A stretch of DNA of 29,949 nucleotides from a virus, in IMG/VR virus record IMGVR_UViG_3300027861_000143, positions 1 through 29,949 of that record; one strand, 5' to 3'. Below the pieces are notes generated by a model, which worked only from the letters and a program-made list of their open reading frames with translations, made no database searches and was not told the DNA's origin. Below are positions 996 through 29,949 of the stretch, piece after piece. The translations under genes were made by a program, and so were the position numbers. How positions within the stretch are numbered: position 1 is the stretch's first letter; every line of letters begins with the position of its first letter.

Positions 996-1003
996 ACTAA
1001 CTT

Positions 1004-1159: not shown

Positions 1160-1160
1160 T

Positions 1161-1870: not shown

Positions 1871-1875
1871 AAAAA

Positions 1876-2430: not shown

Positions 2431-2438
2431 ATAACTAA

Positions 2439-2456
2439 TATATAGGTGACTATATA
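2439..2456 (+). other. AT-rich hairpin with a GNRA-type loop
   Basis: The 62-base gap between 2430 and 2493 contains a perfect 7-bp inverted repeat (TATATAG and CTATATA) enclosing GTGA. In RNA this loop is a GNRA tetraloop closed by a G-C pair. No U-tract follows, so it is not a standard terminator. It may stabilise or process the mRNA. Stem and loop are seen; function is unknown. Confidence 0.4.
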
Positions 2457-2492
2457 AATAAGTAAATATTAATAATCAAATAAAATTAAATT

Positions 2493-8389: not shown

Positions 8390-8398
8390 ACTATTTAT

Positions 8399-8421
8399 TA
8401 TTTAATTTTATTATATTATGG
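8399..8421 (+). promoter_or_regulatory. 23-nt leader repeat, copy 1 (before scaffold gene)
   Basis: The 23 bases ending in ATGG at 8421 are identical to 11142-11164, directly before and including the start codon of the 272-aa gene. The sequence is pure A/T (TATTTAATTTTATTATATT) up to the ATG. In both places an AACTATTTA-like string also lies just upstream. Identity this long, placed identically at two starts, suggests a shared translation-initiation leader or phage promoter element. No Bacteroidota -33/-7 consensus is clear within it. Confidence 0.5.
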
Positions 8422-9602
8422 AAACAAAAACAAATGAACCTGTTAAACAGGAAGGTGAATTTAAATTAAAAAAGAAAACACCAAAAAAATTTACAAAAAC
8501 AAGTGATGAGCCTGTTAAAGTAAACATTAAAGAACCTTTGGTTGAATTAGAACCAGAAGTTAAAAAAGTAATAATACCTAAACAAAAAGAAGATGCCATT
8601 CAAATCGGAGAAACAGAGAAAGTATCTGTGGAAGAACCATCCGGAGATAGCGCAAAGGTGGGAGAACCTGTACAAGAGTCCAACGAGACTACTGAAGGGT
8701 TTTCTCCAATCAAAGAAGTAACAGAGCAGCAAGTACAAGAAGTAAAAGAAGCAATAAGAGATGAGAAGGTTTTAGGTAAACAATTACCTGAAAATATTGA
8801 AAAGCTTGTTTCGTTTATGGAAGAAACTGGTGGAACTATAGAAGATTACACTAGACTTAACGCTGATTATACTAACGTTGATGAAAACACTTTATTAAAA
8901 GAGTATTACAAAAAGACAAAACCTCATTTAGATGATGAGGAAATAGGTTTTATCATGGAAGATAACTTTGACTATGACACAGACCTTGACGAAGAACGAG
9001 ACGTCCGTAAAAAGAAACTCGCTAAAAAAGAAGAGATTGCAAAAGCCAAAAACTTTTTAGAAGAAACTAAGAAAAAATACTACGACGAGATCAAGTTGAA
9101 ATCGAACGTAACTCAGGATCAACAGAAAGCTATGGACTTTTTTAATCGATATAACAAGCAGCAACAAGTAGCTGAGCAACAACACGCGCAATTTAAAGAA
9201 AATACTAAAAAACATTTTAGCGATAATTTCGAAGGTTTCGATATTAAAGTCGGTGAAAAAAGTTATAAGTATAATATTCAAAATCGCGATAAAGTTGCAG
9301 AAAACCAATCAAACATTAATAATCTAGTTGGGAAGTTCCTAGACAAAGAAGGTAATGTCACAGATACGAAAGGTTATCACAAAGCTATGTACGCCGCTGA
9401 AAACGTAGATAAAATCGCAGCTCATTTTTATGAGCAAGGTAAAGTAGATGCTGTAAAGCAAGTTGTAAATAAATCAAAAAACTTAAGTGACTCTCAAGCG
9501 AGATCAACTCAAGGTGATGTGTTTGTCAATGGCATGAAAGTGAAAGCTATATCAGGTGCGGATTCTGCAAAATTAAAAATTAAAACAAAAAGGTTTAACT
9601 AA
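8418..9602 (+). CDS. Scaffolding-like protein between portal and capsid genes
   Basis: The 394-aa product is very charged (Lys, Glu, Asp, Gln) and lacks hydrophobic segments. It has a low-complexity first 90 residues (METKTNEPVKQEGEFKLKKK), long helical central regions (KKKLAKKEEIAKAKNFLEE, QQQVAEQQHAQFKENTKKHF) and a basic C-terminal tail (KLKIKTKRFN). A helical, soluble protein encoded between portal and major capsid protein is the standard signature of a capsid scaffold, whose basic C-terminus contacts the shell. The call rests on position and composition, since scaffolds diverge too fast for motif recognition. Stretches around 8610-8700 and 8985-9300 use more C- and G-ending codons than their surroundings. 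Confidence 0.7.
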   Translation: METKTNEPVKQEGEFKLKKKTPKKFTKTSDEPVKVNIKEPLVELEPEVKKVIIPKQKEDAIQIGETEKVSVEEPSGDSAKVGEPVQESNETTEGFSPIKEVTEQQVQEVKEAIRDEKVLGKQLPENIEKLVSFMEETGGTIEDYTRLNADYTNVDENTLLKEYYKKTKPHLDDEEIGFIMEDNFDYDTDLDEERDVRKKKLAKKEEIAKAKNFLEETKKKYYDEIKLKSNVTQDQQKAMDFFNRYNKQQQVAEQQHAQFKENTKKHFSDNFEGFDIKVGEKSYKYNIQNRDKVAENQSNINNLVGKFLDKEGNVTDTKGYHKAMYAAENVDKIAAHFYEQGKVDAVKQVVNKSKNLSDSQARSTQGDVFVNGMKVKAISGADSAKLKIKTKRFN

Positions 9603-9617
9603 AAAAATTAACAAATT

Positions 9618-11078
9618 ATGAGTTTATCTCCACAATTTGGTAGTATTGTACCTTCGCAAGCTCAACAAGCTTTAGCTTCAAATTACTTAGTATTTGATGG
9701 CGCTGCTGGCGGGAACTTCGCACAACAATATTTACCAGAAATTTACGAACAAGAAGTAGAGCGTTATGGAAACAGAACGTTATCTGGATTCTTAAGAATG
9801 GTTGGCGCTGAAATGCCAATGACAAGTGATCAAGTAATATGGTCAGAACAAAATAGATTACATGTAGCATACAATGGAATTACTGCAACTGCTGCAGGAG
9901 CTGTAGGTGTAAACCCAACAACTCTTACACTAACAGATGGTTCAACTAACGTTATGAGTGTAAACGATACTATAGTAGTTTTAGATCCAACATCTGGATT
10001 AGAAGCTAAATGTATTGTTCTTGCAACTAACGGTGCTGTAAATGGAAACGTAGTAGTACAGTGTTTCACGCCTGTAACTACACTTATTGCTCAAGGATTT
10101 TCTGCTGCTGCAGGAGCTTTGAAAATATTTGTATACGGTTCTGCTTATACTAAAGGAACAACTTTAGGTGCTGGAGCTGCTGGAACTAATTCAGCTGCAA
10201 GACAATCTATCACTCCTTCTTTCACACAGTTTTCTAACTCTCCACTTATTTTAAGAGACCAGTTCCAAATCAATGGATCTGATATGGCTCAAATTGGATG
10301 GGTAGAAGTTGCAACTGAAGACGGTGCTTCTGGTTTCTTATGGTACTTAAAAGCTGAGTCTGAAACAAGATTACGTTTTGAAGATTACCTAGAAATGAGT
10401 ATGGTAGAAAGTGAATTAAACGCTAGTGCTGCTGCTGGAGCTTACGGAAACGGAGCTTTACCAGGATCTGAAGGTTTATTTGCTGCTATTAGAAACAGAG
10501 GAAATGTAGAAGTAGGATTTACTGCTGCTGCTGGACTTGATGATTTTGATGCAATACTTAAAAACTTAGATACTCAAGGAGCTATTGAAGAGAATATGTT
10601 GTTTTTACAAAGACAAACTTCTCTTGATTTTGATGATATGCTAGCTAGCATTTCTGGCGGATTCGCTGGAGGAACTGCTTTTGGTTTATTTGAAAATTCA
10701 GAAGAAATGGCTTTAAATCTTGGGTTCTCAGGATTTAGAAGAGGATCTTATGATTTCTATAAAACTGATTGGAAATACTTAAACGACGCTTCTACTCGTG
10801 GCGCTATCGTTGGTGTTAATTCAATTGAGGGTGTATTAGTACCTGCTGGAACTTCTACTGTTTATGACCAAATTTTAGGTACAAACATTAGACGACCATT
10901 CTTACACGTGCGTTACAGAGCATCTCAAGGAGATGACAGACGTATGAAGTCTTGGTTAACTGGTTCTGCTGGTGGTGCTTTCACTTCAGATTTAGATGCG
11001 ATGCAAATCAATTTCTTATCTGAAAGATGTTTAGTAACTCAAGCTGCTAATAACTTCGTTTTATTCCAAGGATTATAA
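9618..11078 (+). CDS. Major capsid protein (HK97-fold expected)
   Basis: This 486-aa Ala/Gly-rich protein lies immediately downstream of the scaffold-like gene. The N-terminal arm includes YLPEIYEQEVERYGNRTLSG and a VIWSEQNRLH strand. A beta-rich middle (residues about 100-190) could be an insertion or E-loop domain. The C-terminal half has the long spine-like helix (ESETRLRFEDYLEMSMVESE), and the final part has FLSERCLV and ends NNFVLFQGL. Length and placement fit an HK97-fold capsid protein of a podovirus-like phage of Bacteroidota. The fold itself is inferred. The gene is followed by its own hairpin terminator, common for highly expressed capsid genes. Confidence 0.85.
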   Translation: MSLSPQFGSIVPSQAQQALASNYLVFDGAAGGNFAQQYLPEIYEQEVERYGNRTLSGFLRMVGAEMPMTSDQVIWSEQNRLHVAYNGITATAAGAVGVNPTTLTLTDGSTNVMSVNDTIVVLDPTSGLEAKCIVLATNGAVNGNVVVQCFTPVTTLIAQGFSAAAGALKIFVYGSAYTKGTTLGAGAAGTNSAARQSITPSFTQFSNSPLILRDQFQINGSDMAQIGWVEVATEDGASGFLWYLKAESETRLRFEDYLEMSMVESELNASAAAGAYGNGALPGSEGLFAAIRNRGNVEVGFTAAAGLDDFDAILKNLDTQGAIEENMLFLQRQTSLDFDDMLASISGGFAGGTAFGLFENSEEMALNLGFSGFRRGSYDFYKTDWKYLNDASTRGAIVGVNSIEGVLVPAGTSTVYDQILGTNIRRPFLHVRYRASQGDDRRMKSWLTGSAGGAFTSDLDAMQINFLSERCLVTQAANNFVLFQGL

Positions 11079-11098
11079 TAATCCAACAAATGTAATTC

Positions 11099-11125
11099 TT
11101 ACCCTCGTTATATCAACGGGGGTAA
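11099..11125 (+). terminator. Hairpin after the major capsid gene
   Basis: An 11-bp stem pairs TTACCCTCGTT (11099-11109) with AACGGGGGTAA (11115-11125), with one T-G wobble and a 5-base loop ATATC. A T-rich stretch follows (ATTATTACTTTTATA). It lies 20 bases after the capsid stop and before the 272-aa gene. It probably acts as an intrinsic or partial terminator, or protects the capsid mRNA 3' end. The U-tract is interrupted, so read-through is likely. Confidence 0.75.
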
Positions 11126-11141
11126 TTATTACTTTTATAAC

Positions 11142-11164
11142 TATTTAATTTTATTATATTATGG
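11142..11164 (+). promoter_or_regulatory. 23-nt leader repeat, copy 2 (before 272-aa gene)
   Basis: This is an exact copy of 8399-8421, again ending at the start codon plus one base (ATGG). Here it lies just after the capsid terminator hairpin, where a fresh promoter or a strong initiation leader would be needed. The match is seen directly; the role is inference. Confidence 0.5.
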
Positions 11165-11979
11165 CTAAACAAGCTAAAGCAGAAGCTGTTGAGGTTGCAC
11201 CTCAAGAGGTAGCGGTAAAAACTGCACCAAAAAAACCAGCTAAACCTAGTTGGGAAATAAGAGATAGAGTTTATTATCTTAGAAATAATAAAACTCCATT
11301 AACATTAACTATACCTGGAAAGCATACAAGAAAACATGCTTTACTATATTTTGATAAAGACTTAGGTAAACAAAGAGAGCTAAAATACGCGACAAACCAA
11401 GACTCTGTTTTTGTAGACGAACAAAAAGGAGAGTGCACAATGGGTCATATTATATTTAGCGACGGAAGTTTAAAAGTTCCAAAAGAAAAACAAAATTTAC
11501 AAAAACTTCTTTCTTTATACCACCCACTTAATGGTAGGATATATGAAGAGTTTAGCGCTGTAGATGAAGCAGAAGATGATCTTGATATTATACACTTAGA
11601 AATAGATGCTATGAATGCTGCAAGAACAATTGATATTGATCAAGCAGAAGCAATACTAAGAGTTGAAAAAGGATCAGCTGTAAATACAATGAGTTCTAAA
11701 GAATTAAAAAGAGACTTATTGTTGTTTGCTAAAAACAATCCTGCAACCTTTATATCTTTAGCAAAAGATGATAATGTTCAATTAAGAAACTTTGCTATTA
11801 AAGCTCAAGAAGCTGGTATTATAATTTTATCTCAAGATCAAAGAACATTTACTTGGGGATCAAATAATAGAAAATTAATGAACGTACCTTTTGATGAAAA
11901 CCCTTACTCAGCGTTTGCGGCTTTCTTAAAAACAGACGAAGGTGTAGAAATCTATAAATCTATAGATAAAAAACTATAA
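11161..11979 (+). CDS. Virion-associated protein of unknown function (272 aa)
   Basis: The first 30 residues are an Ala/Lys/Pro-rich flexible tail (VKTAPKKPAKPSWEIRDRVY). The body starts with a beta-rich part (YYLRNNKTPLTLTIPGKHTR, ALLYFDKDLGKQRELKY). A helical second half follows (IDIDQAEAILRVEKGSAVN, SKELKRDLLLFAKNNPATFI), ending in a compact FTWGSNNRKLMNVPFDENPY region. No enzyme motif or membrane segment is visible. It is framed by the capsid hairpin upstream and a strong terminator downstream, so it forms its own expression unit with the repeated leader. Position suggests a head-completion or head-to-tail adaptor role, which is inference. Confidence 0.7.
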   Translation: MAKQAKAEAVEVAPQEVAVKTAPKKPAKPSWEIRDRVYYLRNNKTPLTLTIPGKHTRKHALLYFDKDLGKQRELKYATNQDSVFVDEQKGECTMGHIIFSDGSLKVPKEKQNLQKLLSLYHPLNGRIYEEFSAVDEAEDDLDIIHLEIDAMNAARTIDIDQAEAILRVEKGSAVNTMSSKELKRDLLLFAKNNPATFISLAKDDNVQLRNFAIKAQEAGIIILSQDQRTFTWGSNNRKLMNVPFDENPYSAFAAFLKTDEGVEIYKSIDKKL

Positions 11980-11999
11980 AAACAAGTGATACTAATAAC

Positions 12000-12020
12000 A
12001 GGCGGTTTCGGCCGCCTTTT
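12000..12020 (+). terminator. Strong intrinsic terminator
   Basis: A GC-rich stem AGGCGG (12000-12005) pairs with CCGCCT (12012-12017) around the loop TTTCGG and is followed by a run of five T. An outer ATACTA (11990-11995) / TAGTAT inverted repeat could extend the structure, with the T-run inside it. It is the most GC-rich short element in an AT-rich region and sits 20 bases after the 272-aa gene stop. It separates the head genes from the connector and tail operon. Confidence 0.9.
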
Positions 12021-12041
12021 TAGTATATTAAAATAAAACAA

Positions 12042-12788
12042 ATGGTAAATATAAATACAGTATATACAACAGTCTTGTACATATTAAACAAAGAGCAAAG
12101 AGGTTATGTAACTCCAGCGGAGTTTAATAGCTTAGCTACTTTAGTACAAGAAGAAATATTTGATTCATATTTTCCTGACGGAAATCAATTGAACCGTCAA
12201 AACCAAAATAATACTCAGAACGATACAGAGTTTTTTAACATGTTTAAAGACACTGCTTATAAGACATATCCTTTTGAGAAAATTGCTCCTTTTGCTTATG
12301 ATAATACTGCTGGTGTTTTAGGTTGGCAACTTGCTATAGACGGAACAATATACAAGCTTGGAGAAATAATATCTACTTACAACACTACAAATCCTCAATA
12401 CGATTCAATTACTCAGTTAGCTAGTAACAGCGATTATAATAAAATAATAAGATCAAAGCTTACAGCTCCTACAGTTCAAAACCCTATATGTACAACTTCT
12501 TCAGGGCCAAATAGTACATTGCTTATAAAAGTTAGTCCACAGCCAAATAGTTTAAATATAAATTGTTTGTTTAAACCAGTGGCTCCAAACTGGAGTTTTA
12601 CTGTTGGAACACTAGGTCAATATCTTTATGACTCTACTAATTCTATTAACTTTGAATTAGATACATCTGAGCAAACTAACTTAATAATACAGATATTAAA
12701 ATACTGTGGAATAATAATAAACGATCCACAAATAATACAAACCGCATCTATTGAAGCTCAAGAAGCATCGGCTAATCAAAAATCTTAA
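12042..12788 (+). CDS. Probable connector or tail-assembly protein (248 aa)
   Basis: The protein begins MVNINTVYTTVLYILNKEQRG and continues with a helical TPAEFNSLATLVQEEIFDSY segment, then Asn/Gln-rich and beta-rich stretches. It ends in a helical EQTNLIIQILKYCGIIINDPQ segment and an Ala/Gln/Ser-rich tail. There is no enzymatic motif. It is the first gene of the tail operon, right after a terminator, with an A-rich leader (TAAAACAA before ATG). Only three bases separate its stop from the next start. Its position between capsid and gp4-like genes suggests a head-tail adaptor, by inference. Confidence 0.65.
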   Translation: MVNINTVYTTVLYILNKEQRGYVTPAEFNSLATLVQEEIFDSYFPDGNQLNRQNQNNTQNDTEFFNMFKDTAYKTYPFEKIAPFAYDNTAGVLGWQLAIDGTIYKLGEIISTYNTTNPQYDSITQLASNSDYNKIIRSKLTAPTVQNPICTTSSGPNSTLLIKVSPQPNSLNINCLFKPVAPNWSFTVGTLGQYLYDSTNSINFELDTSEQTNLIIQILKYCGIIINDPQIIQTASIEAQEASANQKS

Positions 12789-14033: not shown

Positions 14034-17000
14034 ATGGCAAACGTTCAGAACTCTTTTATAAAGAGCAAATTAAATAAAGACCTTGACGCTAGGTTATTAC
14101 CTAATGGCGAATACAGAGATGCTAAAAACGTTCAAGTTAGTAGATCTGAAGGTGCTAACGTTGGTTCTTTAGAAAACGTATTAGGTAATAAAAAATTAAA
14201 AGACTTTAATGTTATAACAGGAAGTAGCAGTATGGTTTGTATAGGCAAACTTGTAAGTGACTCCACTAGCGAGGTTTATTTGTTTTTAACGTCATACACG
14301 GATCCAAACCCAAGTCAATTAGAATATACGCCAGGTAGCGAAAACTACATAGTAGTTTATAACCCTTCACTTCCAGATACAGAGTCTTTAAAAGTTTTAG
14401 TCAAAGGATCTTTTCTTAATTTTTCGACTACACATGAAATATATCACGCTAACTTATTAGAAGATTTACTATTCTGGACTGACAATAGAAACCAACCTAG
14501 AAAAATAAATGTAAGTCTTGCTAATCCTACTGGTTCAGCAAATCCAACATACTACGAAACAGAAGATCAAATAAGTGTAGCTAAATACAATCCTTATCAA
14601 CCAATACGACTTTGGCAGAAAAATTTAACATCTGCAGATCCTGTTCCTTATGAAACAACGATGAAAGATGTTAACAGTAAGACATTTCCTAATGGTGCAA
14701 CTGCTTTTACAGGAGGAACCTCAGGTGGTGGTGGTGGCGCATCAATAACTCTTGTTAGTTTAGTTGGTGAAGTTCCTGTTTCTACTAGTCCATATGGAGC
14801 AGCAACTGTTGGTTATATAGCACAACCCGGAGCAGCTATTACACCTATACAAGATTCAAGTAATCCACCTAATCCTGTTGTGGTTAACACTATTGAATAT
14901 GTCCCAGCTATAGCAGGTGGTTTTGAGTGGGAGGTTACTTTAAAAGATATAAATGGAGCAGCTTTTAACTGGCCAACTCTAGTAGCTGGAACAGAAGTTG
15001 TTTTTAATTATAACACTTATTACGATAAAGACTTTGCTGGAGATGAAAATTATTTAGAAGATAAGTTTGTAAGATTTAGTTATAGATTTAAATTTGAAGA
15101 TAATGAATATTCATTAATAGCTCCTTTCACTCAAGTTGCTTTTATACCTAAACAAGATGGGTATTTTATGTACGTAAGAGACGATGCTAAAAACTTTACA
15201 AGTAAAGATGACCAAGCTGATGCTTATAGAAGTACCATAGTTTCTTTTGTTGAAAACAAAGTAGATGCTATAAAATTAATAATACCTTTACCTTTTCCTA
15301 AAAGTACAATACAAGATAGTTTAAAAATAAAAGAACTAGATATAATATATAAAGAGTCTGATGCTTTAGCGCTTAAAGTTATCGAGACTATAGAAATAAC
15401 TGAATTAACATCAGGTGCAGATTCTAGTGTTTTTGAATATGATTATTTATCTAAAAAACCGTATAAAGTATTACCAAGCAGTGATACAACTAGGGTTTAT
15501 GATAAAATACCAGTAAGAGCTTTTGCTCAAGAGATTGCTAGCAATAGAGTTGTTTATGGTAATTTTCAAAACAAACACACGCCACCAACTACGCTAGACT
15601 ACAATGTAACAGTAAGTGCTAAGTCAGATTTTAATTTAAAAGATGGAACAGCAATATCTAGTTCACCAACCGGTAGCGTTGGTATAGGTACTACTATTAC
15701 AATTGGAACAACCACTGGCACTGTGCAAATAGGTAGCATTGTTACAAGTGTTACAAATGGTGTTACAATACCTAGTAACACTTCAGTAACTGGAGGCAAC
15801 TTGTCAACTACGATTACACTGGACAAAGCTGTTACTTTAGTTAATCTTACTAATTTAGTTTTTACAGCCGTAGGAACAGATACTCAAGCAGTAAGCAAAA
15901 TAGAATACCCTAATCACTCTGTAAAACAAAACAGGAATTACCAAGTAGGTGTTGTGCTATCTGATAGATATGGTAGATCTTCAACTGTTATATTGTCTAG
16001 AAGCAATAGTTTAATAGCTGATTCCGCTAGTGGTCTTACTTTTTCAGGAGATACTATATACGCGCCTTATTTGCCAGTTGGCTTAGAGCAATCATCTTGG
16101 CCAGGTAACTCTATTAAGGTTTTATTTAATTCAACTATAGGACCTAATGGTAAAAACGTATTAGATGGTTCTCCTGGTATATACAATGGATACCCAACAA
16201 GCGCTGACTACAATCCATTGGGTTGGTATTCATATAAAATTGTAGTTAAACAAACAGAGCAAGAATATTACAATGTATACTTGCCAGGTATCATGGCTGC
16301 TTATCCAGAAGATACATCTTTAGAAATAGGTATAACATCTCATGCTGTTTTAATAAACGATAATATAAACAAAGTTCCAAGAGACTTAACAGAAGTCGGA
16401 CCTGATCAAAAACAATTTAGAAGCTCTGTTCAGTTATTTGGTAGAGTAGAAAATACTTCAACTGAAGCTGGCTACTTGAGCAGCACTGGTAACGAACAAG
16501 TGTACGATAACGCCGGCGCTTTAACAAATCAATACTACCCAGGTAGAAGCTCTGACACTGTATCAACTATTTCAACTCTTAGAGACTTGTTTGATTATTC
16601 ACCAATCGATCCACCAAGACCAAACTACTTTCCGCAATTATATTTAGTTAACTCAAATCCTTTAGTAGCTAGGATAAGTACAGCTAAACAAATAGGTCAG
16701 ATAGCAACCACTAATTACAGTGTAGCTAGCGCTCAAATAAACGCAAATGCAAGTGGAACTGGGTTTGTCCTTAAGAATGTTATTGGAACACCTGCGCCTC
16801 AAATGATTGTTAGTGGAACAGGTATACCAGATGGTGTAACAGTAGTTGGCTACTCAGGGACTAGCTTGACGGTTAGTCAAACATTAACTTTAGACGAAGA
16901 TGATTTTATATACTTTGTTCCAGGTTTTTCAGCTCCTTTTTTAGGTGAACCTAAAGTTCCTGGATTACAGTATTTAGCTGTGTACGAAACAGAACCGGTT

Positions 17001-18275
17001 GAAAGCTTGTTAGATATATTTTGGGAATCAACCAGTGTAGGCGAAGTTGCAGATTTAAACAACTTAATATTAAACGCTACAGGTGGTGGCGCTGGACTAA
17101 GTGCTAACTTAAGTACTTCACTTTGGTCAGAAGCTTATGTTTTAAACAACAGAATATTTGATGCTAATTTTACTTTAGTTGACGCTTTTGGATCTGAACT
17201 ACTACCTGGAAATATAGTTTCTGTAACACTAGATAGTGTTTCGAATGGTAATGGCGTTAATGTTCAAACAGTTGAAGCTAGTCCATACTTTGAACTAGTA
17301 GGTAACGCACAAGACAATACAATACCTCTTGGGTTTTTTAATATAATACTAAAACAAGAATACATAGATGCTGTTTATTATAGTCAAAACTCTGGAGATC
17401 GTAATTTTACGTTTTTAATATCATGGGAAACGACAGATGGCTTGTCTCCTCCGACTAACACCACTGGTGGACCTCAAGTAGTAAACGCTGGTCCATCAAA
17501 CGTTAGACCTAATGACGCGTCGCCAGGTATAACAACCTCACCAAACAGCTTACAAGGTAGCACTATAATTAGTAACAGATACACGTCTTTAGTCGCAGTG
17601 GCTGATGCAGCTAATGGTTCTTCTAATGCGTTATTAAAAACTAGTGGTATAGCTTGGAGTTTAATAAGCGTAAGCAATCAAACTTCTCCAAATATAGACC
17701 TTGTTAGTCAAGGGTTATTTACTATGACTAACACTGTAGCTTCAGGCTTAAGAAGAGGAACACTAACTAACACTAGTGGAGGTAATATGCCTGCTAGTAT
17801 ATACAATATAACTATAGGTGTAGCTGATGCTGGTGGTCCATCACCTGTTGGAACTAACATATCTTTTATTCTTGACTTAAGAGTTGTGCCTTATTCTGTT
17901 GGATCTGGACTAGTTAATTGGTGTGAGGTAGTAGACGGTCAAGGTGATTGCGTATCTGGCGAAACTAGACAAAATAGATACGTAGCTATAGAGATACAAG
18001 GCGGATCTTTTGATGGTTTTTATGTATACGACATAGGTGAGCAAAGCTTTAGTAGTTGGGTTTCTAATTGCTTTGGAGGTAGTACTATTACTTTAAATTA
18101 TACTGGCAGACAAACTACTATTTCAGGATCACCTATAAATAGTTGTATACCTGCATTTGCAAACACGCTTGCTAGTGCTAAACAAATTTTAGACGCAAGA
18201 AACTATAACAGCAGTGCTGATTATTTAAACTTATTAGCTCAAGATACAACTGGTTTAACATTTGAGATAACATAG
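14034..18275 (+). CDS. Large tail protein, P22 gp10-like DNA-stabilisation type
   Basis: The N-terminus (NSFIKSKLNKDLDARLLPNG, then YRDAKNVQVSRSEGANVGSL) matches the signature of podovirus packaged-DNA stabilisation or tail-hub proteins. The following repeats such as ANLLEDLLFWTDNRNQPRKI suggest beta-propeller blades. At 1413 aa it is about three times the P22 gp10 length. Extra beta domains are inserted: a Gly linker plus domain near residues 222-325, and two GT-rich modules near 535-616 and 895-966. The C-terminal part carries a cadherin-like segment (ASIYNITIGVADAGGPSPVG) and a Cys-containing end domain. It likely closes the channel and exposes adhesive surfaces. Its stop shares one base with the GTG start of the next gene. 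Confidence 0.75.
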   Translation: MANVQNSFIKSKLNKDLDARLLPNGEYRDAKNVQVSRSEGANVGSLENVLGNKKLKDFNVITGSSSMVCIGKLVSDSTSEVYLFLTSYTDPNPSQLEYTPGSENYIVVYNPSLPDTESLKVLVKGSFLNFSTTHEIYHANLLEDLLFWTDNRNQPRKINVSLANPTGSANPTYYETEDQISVAKYNPYQPIRLWQKNLTSADPVPYETTMKDVNSKTFPNGATAFTGGTSGGGGGASITLVSLVGEVPVSTSPYGAATVGYIAQPGAAITPIQDSSNPPNPVVVNTIEYVPAIAGGFEWEVTLKDINGAAFNWPTLVAGTEVVFNYNTYYDKDFAGDENYLEDKFVRFSYRFKFEDNEYSLIAPFTQVAFIPKQDGYFMYVRDDAKNFTSKDDQADAYRSTIVSFVENKVDAIKLIIPLPFPKSTIQDSLKIKELDIIYKESDALALKVIETIEITELTSGADSSVFEYDYLSKKPYKVLPSSDTTRVYDKIPVRAFAQEIASNRVVYGNFQNKHTPPTTLDYNVTVSAKSDFNLKDGTAISSSPTGSVGIGTTITIGTTTGTVQIGSIVTSVTNGVTIPSNTSVTGGNLSTTITLDKAVTLVNLTNLVFTAVGTDTQAVSKIEYPNHSVKQNRNYQVGVVLSDRYGRSSTVILSRSNSLIADSASGLTFSGDTIYAPYLPVGLEQSSWPGNSIKVLFNSTIGPNGKNVLDGSPGIYNGYPTSADYNPLGWYSYKIVVKQTEQEYYNVYLPGIMAAYPEDTSLEIGITSHAVLINDNINKVPRDLTEVGPDQKQFRSSVQLFGRVENTSTEAGYLSSTGNEQVYDNAGALTNQYYPGRSSDTVSTISTLRDLFDYSPIDPPRPNYFPQLYLVNSNPLVARISTAKQIGQIATTNYSVASAQINANASGTGFVLKNVIGTPAPQMIVSGTGIPDGVTVVGYSGTSLTVSQTLTLDEDDFIYFVPGFSAPFLGEPKVPGLQYLAVYETEPVESLLDIFWESTSVGEVADLNNLILNATGGGAGLSANLSTSLWSEAYVLNNRIFDANFTLVDAFGSELLPGNIVSVTLDSVSNGNGVNVQTVEASPYFELVGNAQDNTIPLGFFNIILKQEYIDAVYYSQNSGDRNFTFLISWETTDGLSPPTNTTGGPQVVNAGPSNVRPNDASPGITTSPNSLQGSTIISNRYTSLVAVADAANGSSNALLKTSGIAWSLISVSNQTSPNIDLVSQGLFTMTNTVASGLRRGTLTNTSGGNMPASIYNITIGVADAGGPSPVGTNISFILDLRVVPYSVGSGLVNWCEVVDGQGDCVSGETRQNRYVAIEIQGGSFDGFYVYDIGEQSFSSWVSNCFGGSTITLNYTGRQTTISGSPINSCIPAFANTLASAKQILDARNYNSSADYLNLLAQDTTGLTFEIT
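15640..15880 (+). repeat. Inserted beta module, copy 1 (in the 1413-aa protein)
   Basis: Residues about 536-616 have the pattern VQIGSIVTSVTNGVTIPSNT, then V-GG-LSTTITLDKAV and a closing LVFTAVG strand. The same plan (G-V-G-GIP-T-VV, LT-SQ/NQ, hydrophobic closing strand) recurs in copies 2 and 3. Boundaries are approximate. Confidence 0.5.
16717..16930 (+). repeat. Inserted beta module, copy 2 (in the 1413-aa protein)
   Basis: Residues about 895-966 contain MIVSGTGIPDGVTVVGYSGT followed by LTVSQTLTLDEDDFIYFVPG. The SGTGIP-G-TVV...LTVSQ pattern is the clearest version of the module. It interrupts an otherwise continuous ARISTAKQIG...SAPFLGEPKVPGLQ region. Boundaries are approximate. Confidence 0.55.
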
Positions 18276-20505: not shown

Positions 20506-21171
20506 ATGCCAATAGCAGGAATAATAGGTGGAGCAGCTTCTGTAGTCAGTGGCATCTTTGGAGCGGCTTCAGCTAGAAAAGAAGCTAGAAGAAAAGCTAG
20601 AAAAGCTAGAAAACTAGAAAGAAAACTAAATCAATTAGAAGCTAACAGACAAGAAATTATAAATCCTTACGAGGATTCAACTAGCTTAAGTAGCATGATG
20701 AGTAATCCTTTTGCTACACTATCTGTATCAACAGCTGCTACGGAAATTCAAATGGAACAAACTGATATAGCTTTAGCTAACACTTTGGATACTATAAGAC
20801 AAACTGGTGGTGGCGCTGGTGGAGCAACCGCTTTGGCTCAAGCTGCTTTACAAAGCAAAAAGAATATTGCAGCTGGTATAGAGCAACAAGAAAAAGCTAA
20901 TGATGACAAAAGAGTTGAAGGTGAAAAACAACTACAAAACCAATTAGTAAGTGAAGAACAAAGGATGCAAGGTTTAGATGCTGCTGGTAAATCATTTGTT
21001 TATAATGAAACAGAAAGAAGAGAACAACAACAACTTGATAGAGTTTCAAATCAAATAGCAGCATTAAGAGGTCAAGAGTCGCAGGCAAGAGCAGATGCAA
21101 CTGGAGCTATTACTGGAGCGCTTGGGTCTATAGCTGGTATAGCTGGAGCTGGAGGATTTGATAAACCGTAA
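20506..21171 (+). CDS. Internal virion or ejection protein, T7 gp14-like position (221 aa)
   Basis: The N-terminus is a Gly/Ala-rich hydrophobic segment (MPIAGIIGGAASVVSGIFG), followed by a strongly basic coiled helix (ARKEARRKARKARKLERKLN). The middle has a GGGAGGATALAQAAL segment and long Gln-rich helices (EKANDDKRVEGEKQLQNQLV, ETERREQQQLDRVSNQIAAL). It ends in another Gly/Ala hydrophobic tail (GAITGALGSIAGIAGAGGF). Amphipathic Ala/Gly-rich ends with a helical centre are typical of podovirus internal or pilot proteins that line the ejection channel. It is the first of three genes in the order small-medium-giant, resembling T7 gp14-gp15-gp16. The call is by composition and context. Confidence 0.65.
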   Translation: MPIAGIIGGAASVVSGIFGAASARKEARRKARKARKLERKLNQLEANRQEIINPYEDSTSLSSMMSNPFATLSVSTAATEIQMEQTDIALANTLDTIRQTGGGAGGATALAQAALQSKKNIAAGIEQQEKANDDKRVEGEKQLQNQLVSEEQRMQGLDAAGKSFVYNETERREQQQLDRVSNQIAALRGQESQARADATGAITGALGSIAGIAGAGGFDKP

Positions 21172-22277: not shown

Positions 22278-25200
22278 ATGACATTACTACAATACATAAC
22301 CTCTTTACAAGACGAAGGATTATCTCAAGAAGAAATCTTTGCTAAATCACAAGAGTGGAAAAAAAATAATCCTCAAGAAAAACCAATTGAAGAAAAAACT
22401 GATGAAGTTGAGGTAAAGACAGACGACTCCCAGACAAAGGATCCAAGCTTGGAGTCGAAAGACAGTACAGGATCCGAGTCGGAAGATGGGAATTCACAGC
22501 CTGCAAACAATAGCAAACTAACGCTAGAGCAACAAGCTAAATACGACAAAATAACCGCCGTTGCGAAACCAAACGAAGTCATAAATGATAAAGGTTATGA
22601 TTTTAAATACGACAATGATGGAGTGTATTACTATAAACCTGAAGGTTCTGAAGATGATAAATGGGAAACGTATGAAGATAAACAAGGTCCTTCTAATTTA
22701 TCTATAGCTTCTAAATTTGGTCACTCTAGTTTTGATACTAGCGATTACTATAAAACAAAAAAATTAATAAAAAAAGGTGAAGAACTTTATGTTGGTGTAG
22801 ATGGTCAACTTGAGGTTTCAGATAATAAACAATACACTTTAACAGCTGATCAATTAAAGTTAGAAAAAGAGTTTATAAAATCAACATCTTTAAATGACGA
22901 AGATGATTCTAAAATTTTAAAACAAACTAATGATTGGTTTGCTAAAACTACTGTTCCAGAATATAAAATAGAGTATGAAAGAAAAGGTTCTGGTAGTGAT
23001 GCCTATCAACAAAAATTAAAAACAAGGATTGGTGATAAACCTAACCCTGAATGGGTGGAGGCTCAAATAAAATCTAAAAAAGCTTGGGATAAATTAAGTA
23101 CAAAACCAAAAAATATTTCTGAGCAAGCTTGGATTGAGCAGAATATGAAAGACACATACTCATCTAACCTAACACAAAAGAAAAAAGAAGATAAAATAGA
23201 GAGCTGGATAGAAAATCAAGAAACTGGTTTTGATTGGAAAAAAGCGGCTATGATGTTTTCACCAGCAGGAGCTTCTATTAAAGTTAAAGATGTCTTTGAT
23301 AGAAGCGACAAGCAAAAAATTATTGAAGGAATACAAAAAGTAAGAAAGCTTAATTTAGATAATAAATCAAAAGACGCCACTAACTTTGCTGATGTTGCAA
23401 AAAATACTATAGATGGTTTAAGTACTCAAATTGAATTGTTATCTAAAGCTAAGTATCAAACGCCGGAAGAAGCAAAAAAAGGAAAAGCTTTAATAACTAA
23501 GTTACATAACAAAAGGAAAGATGTAATAAAGCTTTACGAAAAAAAAGTAGATAATCTTAACGAGATGCTACTTAAACCAGAGTACAAAGACATAAGCACA
23601 AGACTTGATTATTTAGAAAGAAATTTTAATACGGTAGCTATTTACAGTGAAAACGTAAAAGTAGGTATAGCCAGTGCTGGTGTAGCTTTAGCAGATCTTG
23701 CTCACATGGCTGCCAATGTGCCTAATGAAATTGGTATAAATGAGAATCCTTACGCTAGCAGAGCGCTTAGTATAATTTCTCCTATAAGCTCTTTAGCTTC
23801 AAAATTCGTAGCAACTCAACCATATAAAGAAACAAGAGAAAAAATGAAATCTCAAGTTTCTAACTACATAGATCAAACCATGCAGGGTATAGCTCACTCT
23901 CAGTCTTTAAGTGACTTAAAAGACGGTAATGATTGGGGTAGATATTTTAGTACTATGCTTGGTAGTCAAACACTTAATACTGCTATTATGTTTGGAACAG
24001 GTGGTATGGCTTTACCTATATTAACATCTCAAGCTATGGGAACTAAGTATGGTGAAATAGAAGCTGAGAATAAAGAAAGAGAAGAAGCTTACAACAAGTA
24101 TATAGCAGACGGAGGGGATCCAGATTCTGAAGATGCTCCACCTAGATCTTATACGCCTTTTCAAATGTACACAGCGGTAATGGGTAGTGGTCTTTTAGAG
24201 TATGGCTCTGAAAGAATATCTTTAGGTATAATAGGTAGGTCTAGATCTGCTTTTAAAGCTATGGGTCCTAGTGTAAAACAAGGGTTTTCTAGACAAATAT
24301 CTAGCTTAATGACAAGACAAGGTGCTACTAGAGCTGCAAAAACAGCTGGCTATTACACATTAGACGTAGGTAAAGAATCTTTTTCTGAAGGTGGAGTTGA
24401 GTTAGGTAATAATATATTTGATAGACACGTATTAGGTAAGGATGTCAATTATTTTGGTGGAGTTCCAGACTCTATGTTTAGTGGTGCAATCATGTCTGGA
24501 TTAGTATATAAAGCACCTTCTTTAGCCGCTAATATATCTTATATGGTTCAAGGACCAGACACTAACACTAGAATAGCTAACAACAGAGAAAAAATATTAC
24601 AACTACAAAATACTATAGCATCTAATCCTGAAATGTCAGACGCGAATAGAGCTAGACTAAATGATCAAGTAGTAGATTTAATTAAAAAGTCTAGTAATGA
24701 AATAAATAAAACATTAAATAGATTTAGCGTTATGGACAGGTCTGAAATAGATACTTTGTCCGACCTTGAGTTGCAGGTTAATAAAAAAAGAATAGCTATT
24801 GACGAAGTAAAAGCTGACGCTAATTTTAATGACAAAGATGCTGAAATATCTAGAATAAAAAACGAAATAATAGAACTTGAAATAGAAAAAAACAATGTTC
24901 TAGAACCTTACATACAAGCTGACACTAAGGAAAGTAAAAAAGGATTATCTTCAACTGAAACTGTTGAATTAACATCTAGGATGCAGGAAGGTGCTGACGT
25001 TGTTGCTGATCAATTAGGTAATGTAGGTATTGATAGATTTGATACAACAGAAGATATTATAGGTGCATTTGAAACTTTAAAAGCTGAGGGAATAAATCTA
25101 GAAATAGAAACAAACGAAGACGGTTCTATTAAAGATGCCAAAGATCAAGGTTATGGTATAATAGCAACCTTACCTGATGGCACTCAGCAAATAATTATAA

Positions 25201-28200
25201 ATAACGCTTCTAGTCAAGCTGATGGTACTATACCTGCTGACAACCACGAATTAGTGCATGCTTTTTCTAGTAAAATGGATCCTGCTAAGCTTGCTAAAAT
25301 GGGTATGGATTTAAAAAACAAATTAGATAACGATCCTTACGTAGAATTAGACGCTAATACTAAATCTTTATTACAAGAATATGAAGCTGATTTAAATAAT
25401 GGTAAGATAAGTGAGGCTACGTTTTACGAAGAAGTAATGGCTGTTACTAGTGATGCTTTAAATACAGGAAGTATTAAGATAAGCGATCCAGGTAAATTTG
25501 CTCAAACATGGAATTTCTTAGAAACTATAGGTTGGAAACAAAGCTTTAAAGACGGTGATCAAGTTATAGACTTTTTAAAAGACTTTAACAAAGACGTTTT
25601 AAGTGGCAAAGGTTTGTCACAGCAAACTTTAGATAAAGCTGAGGTTGACATGGGATTAGAAACTGAAGTAGACCTTGGAACTGTTAAGTCGTCTAAAGCT
25701 TCTCAAGCTAAAAACCAAAAGCTAGTAAGAGAAGCTAAACGTGGAGATCTTAAAGCTGTAGATGCTTTAATAAAAGATAACTCAGGTATTATATTACAAA
25801 AGCTAGGATTTAATAAAGACATTGGAGATGTAACCTCACAAGATATTTTAAATGTAGTTAAAGATCAAGCTATAGGTAAAGGTTTATTTAAAGGTAGACA
25901 AAAACCTTTGTTTGATAACTATAACCCTACTAAAGGAGAAGTTAGTACTTACCTAGGTGATATAGTTGGGAAACGTAAAGCTGAGATATTTAAAGCTGCT
26001 GGATTAGATGCTACTAAATTTGATACTGTAAGCACAGACGCTCCGCAAGCACAGCAAGTAGCTGATACTACCGAGCAAACTGAGTTTGATGAAGTGACTA
26101 ATGAAGAAAAAGGTAGAAAGAAAGTGTATCCTTCTAACATGCCTTCTATTTCTAAAAACATAAAACCAGAGTCAATAGCTTCTATAAACGAAGGTGCTAA
26201 AAGAGATATACTACTAAACGCTAGTAAAGGTATAGATGCTATAGTTTCTGGTATAAAATCAGAAGGAAAAATCACAGCAAAAATTTTAGGTAAAGATGTT
26301 GGTACTTTTTCTAAAGGTTGGCCAAAGTTTGTTAATGAGTTAGTCAATGATGGTTTAACTAAAGTTATTCCAGCTGCAGCTTTAAAAAGAAGGTTTGGCA
26401 ATGTTCTTGATATAAAGAAAACAGGTACTACTCCTACTAAAAGAGTAAACCCAGTAACAGGTAAAGTAACTACTTTTAACAAACCAGTATATGAAATACC
26501 TAAAGCAAATAATCAAAATTTAATAGATTATTTTACAGGTCAAGAAAAAAGAAGAACGTCGTTACTAGAAGTTCTAGGACAAGATTTAGTTGTTGAACAA
26601 CTTCAAGAGTTAAAAAACGACTCTGACTTTATGACAAAGCTAGATTCATTAACAGATGGTAAAGCATCTGAAATAATGGATAGTATTGATAGCAAGTTAG
26701 ATGCTAGAAACTTAGAAGATACTTCGCTTGATACTGTTAAGGCTAGCAAGAAAAAAATAAAAAATGCAGCTGACAATATAGATATTGACTCTAAAATAAA
26801 AGATCAATTTGTAGATAAAGTTGAAGCTATTTTAGAAAAAAACCCTGAAGTAACTCTTGAAGAGGCTATAGAGTTTGAAGCGGCTAGAATAGGTAAGAGT
26901 AGAGGTTTTGCTTACGAGAATGTTATAATAGATAAGCTTAAAAAATTAAAAATACCTGGCTTTAAAGTTTCTGGTTTAGCTGGAGGTAATGCGGTTGGAA
27001 TACCAGATTTTGCTTCTACAATATTTGATTCAAATTTTGACGTAGAAGTTAAATTAGAAAAAGCTCAATATAGTAGTGTTACTTTAAAGCATAGAAATGA
27101 ATTAACTACTTTTAGTAAAGACAAAGAATATAGTTTTGTTGATAGATTAACTAAAGATCTTATCAGTAAAGCAAAAAAACCTTTAGCAGAATACAGAAAA
27201 AAAGCTGGAGAATTAGGTGCTGACTTAGATCTTTATGACAAAACTGGTAAATTACCTTTAGATATATATACGCAGCTTCAGAAAGAAGGTTTCCAAAAAG
27301 CTATAACTCAAACTGCAAAATTTAATCAAGATATAATAAGTGAGCTTTATCAGAAAAAAATACCTCCTACTAATTATATTCAAATAAAAAACAAAGGTTT
27401 ATTTTCAATGGGTTCTAATCCTTTAAACCTACCTATACCGCAATTTAAAGCTGATGTAAATGTTACTTTAAGAGTTTCTAGAGGATCAAGAACAGATCTT
27501 AACGGAGTTGAAATGACGACAATGAACCTAAGAATATTACCTGACAACTTAACAAACTTAGGTGTTAGTGATTTTAGCTTAGACAATGTAAGTCAAATGG
27601 AGTCAATGATGAATACTCCTCAAGTTAAAATGTTAGAACTAAACGAACAAGCTAATGAAAATATAAACAACCCTATATTACCAGATGCAATAAAGTTTTC
27701 TAAGAAAAAAGGAAGTAATACAATTATTGAAGCTATGACTAATGCTGATAAAGCTTTAGAGCTAGCTAGAAAATTAAATCAACCGGTTAAAAAAATAAGA
27801 GTATTTGATTTTGACGACACTTTAGCTAAAACTAATAGTCAAGTATTAGTAACAACTATAGATGGTAAGACTAGAAAAATAAATGCTACTCAGTTTGCTT
27901 TAGAGTCTCAGCAATTAGAAGCTGAAGGAGCTGAGTTTGATTTTAGTGAATTTAGTCAAGTTATAGATGGTAAAAAAGGACCATTATTTGATTTAGCTAA
28001 AAAAATAGCAGATTCTCCTGGAAAAAGAGATATGTTTATATTAACAGCTAGACCTCAAAACGCTGCAAACGGCATTAAAACTTTTTTAGATGGTATTGGA
28101 TTAAACATACCTATAGAAAATATAACAGGATTACAAGATGGAGCTCCAGAAGCTAAAGCTAGATGGATGGTAGAAAAAGCTGCTGAAGGTTACAATGATT

Positions 28201-29949
28201 TTTACTTTGCAGATGATGCTTTAAAAAATGTAAGAGCAGTTAAAGATGTTTTAAGTACTGTTGATGTTAAATCTAAAGTTCAATTAGCTAAAGCTAGTAA
28301 GAAAAAAGTGTTTAATAAAGTCTTTAATGATATAATAGAGAATAGCACAGGTATAAAATCATACAAAGTATATTCACCTGCAAAAGCGCAAACAATCGGC
28401 GCTAGCAAAGGTAAATTTGATTTTCTTATACCAGCTTCAGCAGAAGATTTTACAGGGTTATTATATAAAACCTTAGGTAAAGGTAAGGTTGGTGATGCTC
28501 AAATGGCTTTTTACAAAACTAATTTACTTGATCCTTACAATAGAGCTGAAATAGCTGTGGTAAACGCTAAGATAGCAGCTGCAAATGACTTTAAGGCATT
28601 AAAGAATAATTTAAAAACTTTACCTAAAAGTTTATCTAAGTTAACTGGAGTAGGTAAATTTACTTTTTCACAAGCTTCTCGTGTAGCTGTATGGACAAGA
28701 CAAGGTATGACTGTACCAGGTTTATCTAAAACAGATCTTAAACAATTAAATGACTTTGTTGATAACAATGCTGAGTTAAATACTTTTGCAGATGAGCTTA
28801 TAAAAATACAAAAAGGAAAACCATATCCTGCACCTACAAAGACATGGGTTAGTGGAACTATAACAAGTGATATAACTACAGAAATAAACAAAGTCAATAG
28901 AAAAGAGTACATGCAGGAGTTTCAAGAAAATGCTGACATAATTTTTAGCGATGAAAACATGTCAAAACTTGAAGCTGCTTACGGACCTAAGTATGTTGAA
29001 GCTTTAAAAGATAATCTACGTAGAATGAAGTCAGGCTCTAATAGACCGATAGGAGGTTCTAGAGTTGTTAACGAAGTATTAGATTGGCTAAACAATTCAG
29101 TTGGTGCTGTCATGTTCTTAAACACTAGATCTGCAATACTACAAACTATATCTGCGGTTAACTTTGTTCAAGTCAGTGGACCTAATAATTTACTAGCAGC
29201 AGGTAAAGCTTTTGCTAATCAAAAACAATACTGGAAAGATTTCATGACATTAATGAATTCACCTTATTTAGTTGAAAGACGTAATGGTTTAAAAATAAAT
29301 GTTAGTGAATCTGAAATAGCAGATGCTGTGGCTGAATCTAAAAACAAACCAAAAGCTGCTTTAGCTTATTTATTAAGCAAAGGTTTTGTAATGACTAGGT
29401 TTGCAGATAGTTTTGCTATTGCTTCTGGAGGTTCTACTTTTTATAGAAACACTGTTGATGCTTTAGTTAAAAGCGGTATGGACCAAAAGTCGGCTGAGAA
29501 AAAAGCTTTTGATGATTTTAGAGCTTTAGCGGAAGAAAGTCAACAATCAAGTAATCCTAGTAGAATAAGCCAACAACAAGCTTCAGCAGCTGGTCGTGTT
29601 ATATTAGCGTTTGCTAATACACCGATGCAGTATGCTCGTATAATAAAAAAATCTAGTCAAGATCTTATAAACGGTAGAGGTGACTGGAAATCTAATGTAT
29701 CTAAAATAGCTTATTACGGCGCTATGCAAAACGTAGTGTTTAACGCTTTACAACAAGCTTTATTTGCTTTAGCTTTTAGTGACGATGAAGAAGAAAAAGA
29801 AAAACAAAAGAAAGATAAGACCGGTAGAATAGTAAACGGTATGGTTGATTCTTTAATAAAAGGAGCAGGTATACAAGGTCAAGCTGTTATTGCAATTAAA
29901 AACGCTATAATTAAAATAGCTGAAGAGGCTGATAAAAAATCACCAGAGT
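22278..29949 (+). CDS. Giant multi-enzyme polyvalent virion protein, 3' end outside the window
   Basis: The frame opens with ATG directly after the previous stop and stays open to the last base (at least 2557 codons), so the gene is partial. The N-terminus (MTLLQYITSLQDEGLSQEEI) leads into an acidic disordered linker, then helical and Gly-rich hydrophobic parts near residues 460-480 and 555-590. Domains in order: gluzincin-like peptidase (HELVH at 990-994, EEVMA at 1051-1055), an unassigned domain (about 1142-1486), a PD-(D/E)XK-like core (E1547, D1577, E1590, K1592), a HAD phosphatase (D1844, D1846, T1923, K1960, D1979) and a long C-terminal region (FANTPMQYARIIKK) with hydrophobic helices. 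It is probably packaged and ejected with DNA. No RNA polymerase signature was seen. Confidence 0.85.
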   Translation, partial: MTLLQYITSLQDEGLSQEEIFAKSQEWKKNNPQEKPIEEKTDEVEVKTDDSQTKDPSLESKDSTGSESEDGNSQPANNSKLTLEQQAKYDKITAVAKPNEVINDKGYDFKYDNDGVYYYKPEGSEDDKWETYEDKQGPSNLSIASKFGHSSFDTSDYYKTKKLIKKGEELYVGVDGQLEVSDNKQYTLTADQLKLEKEFIKSTSLNDEDDSKILKQTNDWFAKTTVPEYKIEYERKGSGSDAYQQKLKTRIGDKPNPEWVEAQIKSKKAWDKLSTKPKNISEQAWIEQNMKDTYSSNLTQKKKEDKIESWIENQETGFDWKKAAMMFSPAGASIKVKDVFDRSDKQKIIEGIQKVRKLNLDNKSKDATNFADVAKNTIDGLSTQIELLSKAKYQTPEEAKKGKALITKLHNKRKDVIKLYEKKVDNLNEMLLKPEYKDISTRLDYLERNFNTVAIYSENVKVGIASAGVALADLAHMAANVPNEIGINENPYASRALSIISPISSLASKFVATQPYKETREKMKSQVSNYIDQTMQGIAHSQSLSDLKDGNDWGRYFSTMLGSQTLNTAIMFGTGGMALPILTSQAMGTKYGEIEAENKEREEAYNKYIADGGDPDSEDAPPRSYTPFQMYTAVMGSGLLEYGSERISLGIIGRSRSAFKAMGPSVKQGFSRQISSLMTRQGATRAAKTAGYYTLDVGKESFSEGGVELGNNIFDRHVLGKDVNYFGGVPDSMFSGAIMSGLVYKAPSLAANISYMVQGPDTNTRIANNREKILQLQNTIASNPEMSDANRARLNDQVVDLIKKSSNEINKTLNRFSVMDRSEIDTLSDLELQVNKKRIAIDEVKADANFNDKDAEISRIKNEIIELEIEKNNVLEPYIQADTKESKKGLSSTETVELTSRMQEGADVVADQLGNVGIDRFDTTEDIIGAFETLKAEGINLEIETNEDGSIKDAKDQGYGIIATLPDGTQQIIINNASSQADGTIPADNHELVHAFSSKMDPAKLAKMGMDLKNKLDNDPYVELDANTKSLLQEYEADLNNGKISEATFYEEVMAVTSDALNTGSIKISDPGKFAQTWNFLETIGWKQSFKDGDQVIDFLKDFNKDVLSGKGLSQQTLDKAEVDMGLETEVDLGTVKSSKASQAKNQKLVREAKRGDLKAVDALIKDNSGIILQKLGFNKDIGDVTSQDILNVVKDQAIGKGLFKGRQKPLFDNYNPTKGEVSTYLGDIVGKRKAEIFKAAGLDATKFDTVSTDAPQAQQVADTTEQTEFDEVTNEEKGRKKVYPSNMPSISKNIKPESIASINEGAKRDILLNASKGIDAIVSGIKSEGKITAKILGKDVGTFSKGWPKFVNELVNDGLTKVIPAAALKRRFGNVLDIKKTGTTPTKRVNPVTGKVTTFNKPVYEIPKANNQNLIDYFTGQEKRRTSLLEVLGQDLVVEQLQELKNDSDFMTKLDSLTDGKASEIMDSIDSKLDARNLEDTSLDTVKASKKKIKNAADNIDIDSKIKDQFVDKVEAILEKNPEVTLEEAIEFEAARIGKSRGFAYENVIIDKLKKLKIPGFKVSGLAGGNAVGIPDFASTIFDSNFDVEVKLEKAQYSSVTLKHRNELTTFSKDKEYSFVDRLTKDLISKAKKPLAEYRKKAGELGADLDLYDKTGKLPLDIYTQLQKEGFQKAITQTAKFNQDIISELYQKKIPPTNYIQIKNKGLFSMGSNPLNLPIPQFKADVNVTLRVSRGSRTDLNGVEMTTMNLRILPDNLTNLGVSDFSLDNVSQMESMMNTPQVKMLELNEQANENINNPILPDAIKFSKKKGSNTIIEAMTNADKALELARKLNQPVKKIRVFDFDDTLAKTNSQVLVTTIDGKTRKINATQFALESQQLEAEGAEFDFSEFSQVIDGKKGPLFDLAKKIADSPGKRDMFILTARPQNAANGIKTFLDGIGLNIPIENITGLQDGAPEAKARWMVEKAAEGYNDFYFADDALKNVRAVKDVLSTVDVKSKVQLAKASKKKVFNKVFNDIIENSTGIKSYKVYSPAKAQTIGASKGKFDFLIPASAEDFTGLLYKTLGKGKVGDAQMAFYKTNLLDPYNRAEIAVVNAKIAAANDFKALKNNLKTLPKSLSKLTGVGKFTFSQASRVAVWTRQGMTVPGLSKTDLKQLNDFVDNNAELNTFADELIKIQKGKPYPAPTKTWVSGTITSDITTEINKVNRKEYMQEFQENADIIFSDENMSKLEAAYGPKYVEALKDNLRRMKSGSNRPIGGSRVVNEVLDWLNNSVGAVMFLNTRSAILQTISAVNFVQVSGPNNLLAAGKAFANQKQYWKDFMTLMNSPYLVERRNGLKINVSESEIADAVAESKNKPKAALAYLLSKGFVMTRFADSFAIASGGSTFYRNTVDALVKSGMDQKSAEKKAFDDFRALAEESQQSSNPSRISQQQASAAGRVILAFANTPMQYARIIKKSSQDLINGRGDWKSNVSKIAYYGAMQNVVFNALQQALFALAFSDDEEEKEKQKKDKTGRIVNGMVDSLIKGAGIQGQAVIAIKNAIIKIAEEADKKSPE
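24987..25500 (+). other. Gluzincin-like metallopeptidase domain in the giant protein
   Basis: At 25245-25259 the codons give HELVH (residues 990-994), preceded by the strand-like TQQIIINNASSQADG as in zincins, where an edge strand precedes the active helix. About 60 residues later, ATFYEEVMAVTSDAL (E1051-E1052) supplies the glutamate third ligand in the EExxAxxSD form typical of gluzincins in phage polyvalent proteins. Boundaries are approximate. Confidence 0.7.
25683..25700 (+). repeat. K-x-S-K boundary motif 1 (VKSSKA)
   Basis: Residues 1136-1141 read VKSSKA, immediately after the peptidase domain and before a charged linker (SQAKNQKLVREAKRGDLKAV). It is the first and most divergent of four related motifs. 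Confidence 0.45.
26736..26756 (+). repeat. K-x-S-K boundary motif 2 (VKASKKK)
   Basis: Residues 1487-1493 read VKASKKK, between the unassigned domain and the nuclease-like domain. They are flanked by an acidic low-complexity stretch (DARNLEDTSLD) and a Lys/Asn-rich start. Confidence 0.55.
26901..27090 (+). other. PD-(D/E)XK-like nuclease core in the giant protein
   Basis: The segment contains GFAYENVIIDKLKKL (helix with E1547), then AGGNAVGIPDFAST with D1577. Thirteen residues on comes FDVEVKLEKAQYSS, with E1590 and K1592. This is the order E...PD...ExK of the PD-(D/E)XK nuclease superfamily, and the spacing is normal. Restriction-type or Holliday-junction-type specificity cannot be inferred. 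Confidence 0.65.
27690..27710 (+). repeat. K-x-S-K boundary motif 3 (IKFSKKK)
   Basis: Residues 1805-1811 read IKFSKKK, between the nuclease part and the HAD domain. They follow NPILPDA and are followed by GSNTIIEAM. Confidence 0.55.
27795..28245 (+). other. HAD phosphatase domain in the giant protein
   Basis: All four HAD motifs are visible: VFDFDDTLAKT (motif I, D1844 nucleophile and D1846), MFILTARPQ (motif II, T1923), APEAKARWM (motif III, K1960) and YFADDALKN (motif IV, D1979-D1980). The cap between motifs I and II is about 75 residues. The motif set is complete, so an active phosphatase is likely; the substrate is unknown. Confidence 0.8.
28287..28307 (+). repeat. K-x-S-K boundary motif 4 (AKASKKK)
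   Basis: Residues 2004-2010 read AKASKKK, just after the HAD domain and before a new globular segment (FNKVFNDIIENSTGIKSY). It is identical to motif 2 except for its first residue. Confidence 0.55.

Follow-up and report, generated by a model that had tools for sequence, protein, structure and literature searches.

A recurrent K-x-S-K motif at the module junctions of a giant marine phage protein: a candidate processing site for an embedded zincin-like peptidase

Introduction

Why does the same short basic sequence recur between the enzyme domains of a giant phage protein, and is it read by anything? The protein is encoded by the last gene of a 29.9-kb virus-record fragment of an uncultured marine phage, and this whole stretch of 29,949 nucleotides is called the window below. 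Matches in the window include terminase, portal, capsid and crAss-type muzzle proteins (crAss_MUZ at 14034-18275), and the nearest terminases are those of flavobacterial podoviruses and of one uncultured spring phage. Downstream of these genes, a zincin, a nuclease and a HAD domain are all encoded in one ORF. The giant protein is at least 2557 aa long, and the giants of its relatives are mostly 2500-3600 aa. No family from Pfam or PHROGs could be assigned to it (no Pfam match in the window protein), and searching phage records by tblastn with its peptidase and HAD regions gave no match. Two smaller proteins were also recognized in the window. The 221-aa protein at 20506-21171 is weakly similar to the T7 gp14 internal virion protein and is likely an ejection protein, and the 201-aa protein at 2973-3578 matches PHROG 13932, a phage GroES-like co-chaperonin.

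The original prediction had described four copies of a short motif at domain boundaries of the giant protein, and offered polyprotein-style processing or a linker left by domain shuffling as the reason. In Iyer et al. 2017 (PMC5512222), zincin processing is proposed for giants of the polyvalent protein type, and P1 DdrB is described as processed before packaging.

Domains of the giant protein and position of the motif

The predicted modules of the giant protein and the junction motifs are located in the window as follows.

22278..29948, + strand: giant multidomain protein, 2557 aa; last gene, ORF open at the window end
24924..24938, + strand: junction motif 0, TKESK (TKESKKG), aa 883-887, just before the peptidase
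24951..25640, + strand: zincin-like peptidase, aa ~892-1121, AF2 pLDDT about 90
25245..25259, + strand: HELVH active site, aa 990-994 (HExxH motif)
25683..25697, + strand: junction motif 1, VKSSK, aa 1136-1140, after the peptidase
26736..26750, + strand: junction motif 2, VKASK, aa 1487-1491, before the nuclease
26889..27581, + strand: PD-(D/E)XK-like nuclease, aa ~1538-1768, PDF...EVK, aligned to stand-alone P-SSM2_192
27690..27704, + strand: junction motif 3, IKFSK, aa 1805-1809, between nuclease and HAD
27783..28256, + strand: HAD phosphatase, aa ~1836-1993, best structural match T4 PNKP 3' phosphatase
28287..28301, + strand: junction motif 4, AKASK, aa 2004-2008, after HAD
28395..29948, + strand: conserved C-terminal region, common to nearly all relatives, without motif enrichment

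In the peptidase, the candidate for the third zinc ligand is the Glu at aa 1052, which is invariant in 24 aligned relatives (E/H/E columns). The best matches of the peptidase model among solved structures were M34-type zincins (PPEP, lethal-factor group) at modest Z scores of 5-6.7; the structural matches came from one fold group, consistent with the active-site motif. In the viral library the best matches were the giants of Flavobacterium phage elemo and Gundel_1, together with proteins named 'large polyvalent protein associated domain'. A helical region forms the module between peptidase and nuclease. Stand-alone cyanophage proteins, among them the 225-aa P-SSM2_192, aligned with the nuclease region over its full length and were used to set its edges, the AF2 model having low confidence there. 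The region has a PD...EVK pattern, which is typical of PD-(D/E)XK nucleases. The HAD domain matched the T4 PNKP 3' phosphatase with Z 11.8 over 120 residues.

The pattern [VIA]K[SAF]SK occurs exactly four times in the 2557 aa, against a composition-based expectation of 0.09. All four copies (aa 1136, 1487, 1805 and 2004) lie exactly where they had been reported, and their placement relative to the domains held up with the AF2 models of zincin and HAD and with the cyanophage nuclease alignment. The count of four was incomplete, as a fifth K-x-S-K, TKESKKG at 883, had been overlooked. With it the giant has five K-x-S-K in total, every one of them at a junction, and the peptidase is bracketed by a copy on either side (883 and 1136). 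The stretch aligned to the stand-alone nucleases is separated by about 50 aa from the 1487 site ahead of it and by 37 aa from the 1805 site behind it; for the HAD domain the corresponding gaps are about 27 aa to 1805 and 11 aa to 2004. None of the copies thus falls within the peptidase, nuclease or HAD domain, and each of the five begins in a 10-residue block with pLDDT <50; 33% of the blocks in the AF2 model are of this kind. Occurrence inside predicted globular cores, which would have spoken against a boundary motif, was not seen in the model. LRVSR at 1731, inside the nuclease, is matched by a looser pattern, [VILMAT][KR]xS[KR], and was taken as a chance match.

Motif enrichment among related giants

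The pattern [VIA]K[SAF]SK had been picked post hoc from the window sequence, so the fair test lies in the relatives. These were drawn from IMG/VR, and 46 related giants entered the motif test. The pattern [VILMA]K[FYAS]S[KR] gave 64 matches in 22 flank-independent clusters, whereas permuted orders of the same residue classes gave a mean of 5.7 clusters (sd 2.8). C-terminal of HExxH the motif was seen 67 times against 6.7 expected. Before HExxH (1 vs 1.7 expected) and in the C-terminal region (1 vs 2.0 expected) it was not enriched, and in the other ORFs of the same contigs (116,218 aa) there were 0 copies against 2.7 expected. The motif is therefore real and limited to the part of the protein from the peptidase onward, and it is selected in the giants rather than due to chance. 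The looser [VILMAT][KR]xS[KR] peaks 100-200 aa past HExxH, at the C-terminal edge of the peptidase (26 vs 2 expected). Enrichment of the motif at junctions is strong in homologues, which was the second check set by the original prediction. In its fuller form K-x-S-K consists of a hydrophobic residue or Ala/Thr, then K/R, any residue (often F/A/Y/S/E/Q), S and K/R. The motif is rare or absent in several divergent giants that do have HExxH.

Junctions as exchange points and as sites read in the protein

The ends of BLAST segments between giants fell within 10 aa of the sites 270 times, compared with 70±26 for random positions (post-HAD site left out). Homology of the window protein to three relatives ends at or near 1136, and in the giant L062 an additional cassette sits at the post-HAD junction, bordered by junction sequence on either side. 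By these breaks in homology, the junctions appear as points of module exchange.

The sequence of the post-HAD junction finds better matches elsewhere in its own giant than in other giants (z 1.40±0.18), while z stayed within about ±0.25 at control positions (n=14). The motif copies thus vary in concert within a protein. At within-protein site pairs 166/281 codons were identical, against 159.6 predicted from codon usage, and the Ser codon family was shared in 44/78 pairs, against 40.9 expected. At homologous sites the same Ser codon family was found in 328/328. Because the codons of within-protein pairs agree only as codon usage predicts, the likeness of the motifs is not that of copied DNA, and the codon comparison rules out a DNA-level repeat or gene conversion as the source. 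Copies that are alike as protein and unrelated in their codons point to selection at the protein level: the motif is conserved as protein, and something reads the junction sites as protein. Of the shuffling idea, the part that stood is that junctions are exchange points, as the BLAST ends indicate; a motif carried along as copied DNA did not survive the codon comparison.

Candidate readers of the junction motif

Our preferred reading is that the junction motif is recognized as a linear sequence and that the embedded zincin most likely cuts there to process the chain; we give this reading a probability of about 0.48. The giant would be a modular virion cargo polyprotein, akin to phage polyvalent proteins, with K-x-S-K as a selected recognition motif in the flexible linkers that join the enzyme modules. 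The embedded zincin, with a copy on each flank, would most likely cut each K-x-S-K, be it inside the head or once the protein has been ejected. The products would be the separate peptidase, helical region, nuclease and phosphatase, and the C-terminal structural region. Cleavage of the motif is what we infer, together with the zincin as cutter, the exact bond and the timing. Two features of a self-processing polyprotein are present, in that a protease lies inside the chain and a shared sequence stands at each junction, in accessible linkers and flanking the protease. Since there is one zincin per giant and it is flanked by motifs, it is the natural candidate. A broader proposal, which we hold with somewhat more doubt, is that a clade of marine tailed phages has a self-encoded code, in which one zincin would cut a fixed K-x-S-K at all module joints, tagged cassettes could be swapped and the tag would drift with the peptidase into lineage dialects.

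Weak covariation links the post-HAD motif to the peptidase, which lies some 1000 aa from it (partial r 0.15, p 0.01, corrected for adjacent and N-terminal domains), and the covariation of N-terminal residues 1-100 with this motif was similar in size to that of the peptidase. L091 (1477-9552) shares 61% identity with the window protein over the part that begins with the nuclease. Its zincin has Glu instead of the first zinc His (SEELYH), and its three junctions read RFAKEI, RFAKDI and RYAKDI in place of K-x-S-K. L099 (around 9001) has the same His to Glu change (EEVFH). Its giant gene is frame-broken and was read as separate frame pieces; its junctions RFAKEI, SFTEK and MFSET lack K-x-S-K at those read. 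The joint loss of the zinc His and of K-x-S-K in L091 and L099 counts as one evolutionary event. The rest of the zincin domain is kept in both, and may be a pseudo-peptidase or have an altered metal site. A strict concerted shift to R[FY]AK[DE]I in the L091 lineage was considered and dropped, as L099 does not keep it, which leaves the loss of K-x-S-K as the claim. In L026 the giant is divided over two overlapping ORFs (2077-6774 and 6737-12178), with the peptidase HExxH in the first and the enzyme modules and two motif-like sites in the second. With HExxH and sites on separate ORFs, cutting would need action in trans.

Processing by the internal metallopeptidase, as first suggested, is thus favoured, by indirect evidence, from position, within-protein concert, the weak covariation and the joint loss in one lineage. 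Against it stand the giants of the cultured relatives elemo and Gundel_1, which have a zincin motif but no K-x-S-K enrichment: the elemo giant carries HEIFH and 1 K-x-S-K match against 2.0 expected, and Gundel_1 gp074 carries HEFGH and 2 against 1.1. N4 vRNAP, which has a zincin domain and is reported in PMC5512222 to be packaged uncut, also counts against it.

The motif could also be bound and not cut, with a virion or ejection protein, or the C-terminal region, gripping the linkers for ordered packing and threading through portal and tail. Binding of a short linear motif would equally account for its enrichment, its place in linkers, its conservation as protein and its concerted variation within a protein. 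The best correlate of the motif variant is the adjacent C-terminal region (partial r 0.45, above the value for the peptidase), and the three L091 junctions are still alike despite the lost His and without an intact HExxH, so that something may still read them. Binding alone leaves unexplained why the motif begins with the peptidase and stands on either side of it, and the long N-terminal part, which would also need threading, has no copies; docking is a real rival and the main one, which we hold less likely than cutting by the zincin. Cutting by another protease, either one of the host or the 104-aa HExxH product of a gene of its own (window 1161-1475), seems improbable. A basic motif could suit a Lys/Arg-specific host protease. 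The 104-aa ORF has HEKIH and weak metallopeptidase similarity (DUF6782/M78), which makes it a possible separate protease, and it occurs in 16/26 relatives' records, including that of L091 with its altered internal peptidase. Yet the small ORF is also present in L016 and L028, which have few or no motif copies, it was not found in the incomplete contigs of the motif-rich L042 and L062, and the weak covariation favours the internal peptidase.

The remaining explanations give the motif no function. A linker carried along in cassette exchange would account for the gathering of homology breaks at the sites and for the extra L062 cassette between two junction sequences. Such a relic is strongly disfavoured by within-protein copies that have unrelated synonymous codons and use both Ser codon families, and neutral relics would not drift in concert; the chance we allow it is small. 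Linkers rich in K, S and A could in principle yield K-x-S-K by composition, and Lys makes up 10.9% of the giant, Ser 7.5%. The same residues in other orders show no enrichment, however, and the K-F-S-K/R form is 22-fold above expectation although linkers disfavour Phe. With the permuted-pattern, shuffle and other-protein controls, composition and chance are ruled out for practical purposes.

Comparison with known systems

The window giant resembles phage polyvalent proteins as described in PMC5512222 in being very large and multidomain, and in lying among virion genes with one zincin and nucleic-acid enzymes. Of the traits of this group, several enzyme domains encoded with virion genes were found, as well as HExxH with a downstream Glu. 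Curated LPD models gave one weak match, LPD14 in the relative L042, with an E value of 0.0044 and below the cut-off. The passages considered from that paper describe no cleavage sequence for polyvalent proteins, whereas the window giant has a recurrent junction motif. Zincin processing of polyvalent proteins had thus been put forward before, and the recurrent junction motif is the new element here. What the 2017 proposal of zincin self-processing in phage giants lacked was a known site, and the motif supplies a candidate for it. In the literature searched, which included few subscription papers, we found no earlier report of a cleavage motif or polyprotein in phage giants. A statistically firm short motif at mapped junctions makes the idea testable by single-residue changes and helps to delimit modules in unannotated giant phage proteins. 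If the zincin reading is true, several enzymes would be released from one chain, and tailed DNA phages would use a polyprotein logic of the RNA-virus style.

The giants of Elemovirus and of Gundelvirus/Pachyviridae, which are flavobacterial podoviruses, are similar to the window giant in a related terminase, N-terminal homology and a predicted zincin of similar fold, and differ in lacking K-x-S-K enrichment. The Gundel_1 giant is annotated as 'structural protein'. No convincing alternative came out of a simple search of the elemo, Gundel_1 and MW202828 giants for another repeated motif. L084 (MW202828) has a terminase 62% identical to that of the window, and its 3859-aa giant (741-12320), with two HExxH, has no detectable similarity to the window giant. 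A kept terminase with an unrelated giant suggests that giants are replaced while packaging genes stay.

In Crassvirales, the cargo of phi-crAss001 (gp45-gp50, PMC10172136) likewise consists of large proteins encoded after the muzzle gene; unlike the window giant, it includes RNA polymerase subunits. No motif enrichment was found in gp45, gp47 and gp50 of phi-crAss001, and the terms 'cleav' and 'proteoly' are absent from PMC10172136.

T4 polynucleotide kinase-phosphatase is similar in that the HAD domain matches its 3' phosphatase. It differs from the window protein, which is without a kinase insert and in which the phosphatase is one module of a giant. Some relatives add a P-loop kinase (AAA_33/zeta-toxin-like) inside HAD, just past the first HAD motif (window aa 1860|1864), namely L042 (4430-12175), L044 (4094-12172) and L062 (1916-12475). 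In these three the kinase within HAD makes a kinase-phosphatase that resembles PNKP with a different domain order.
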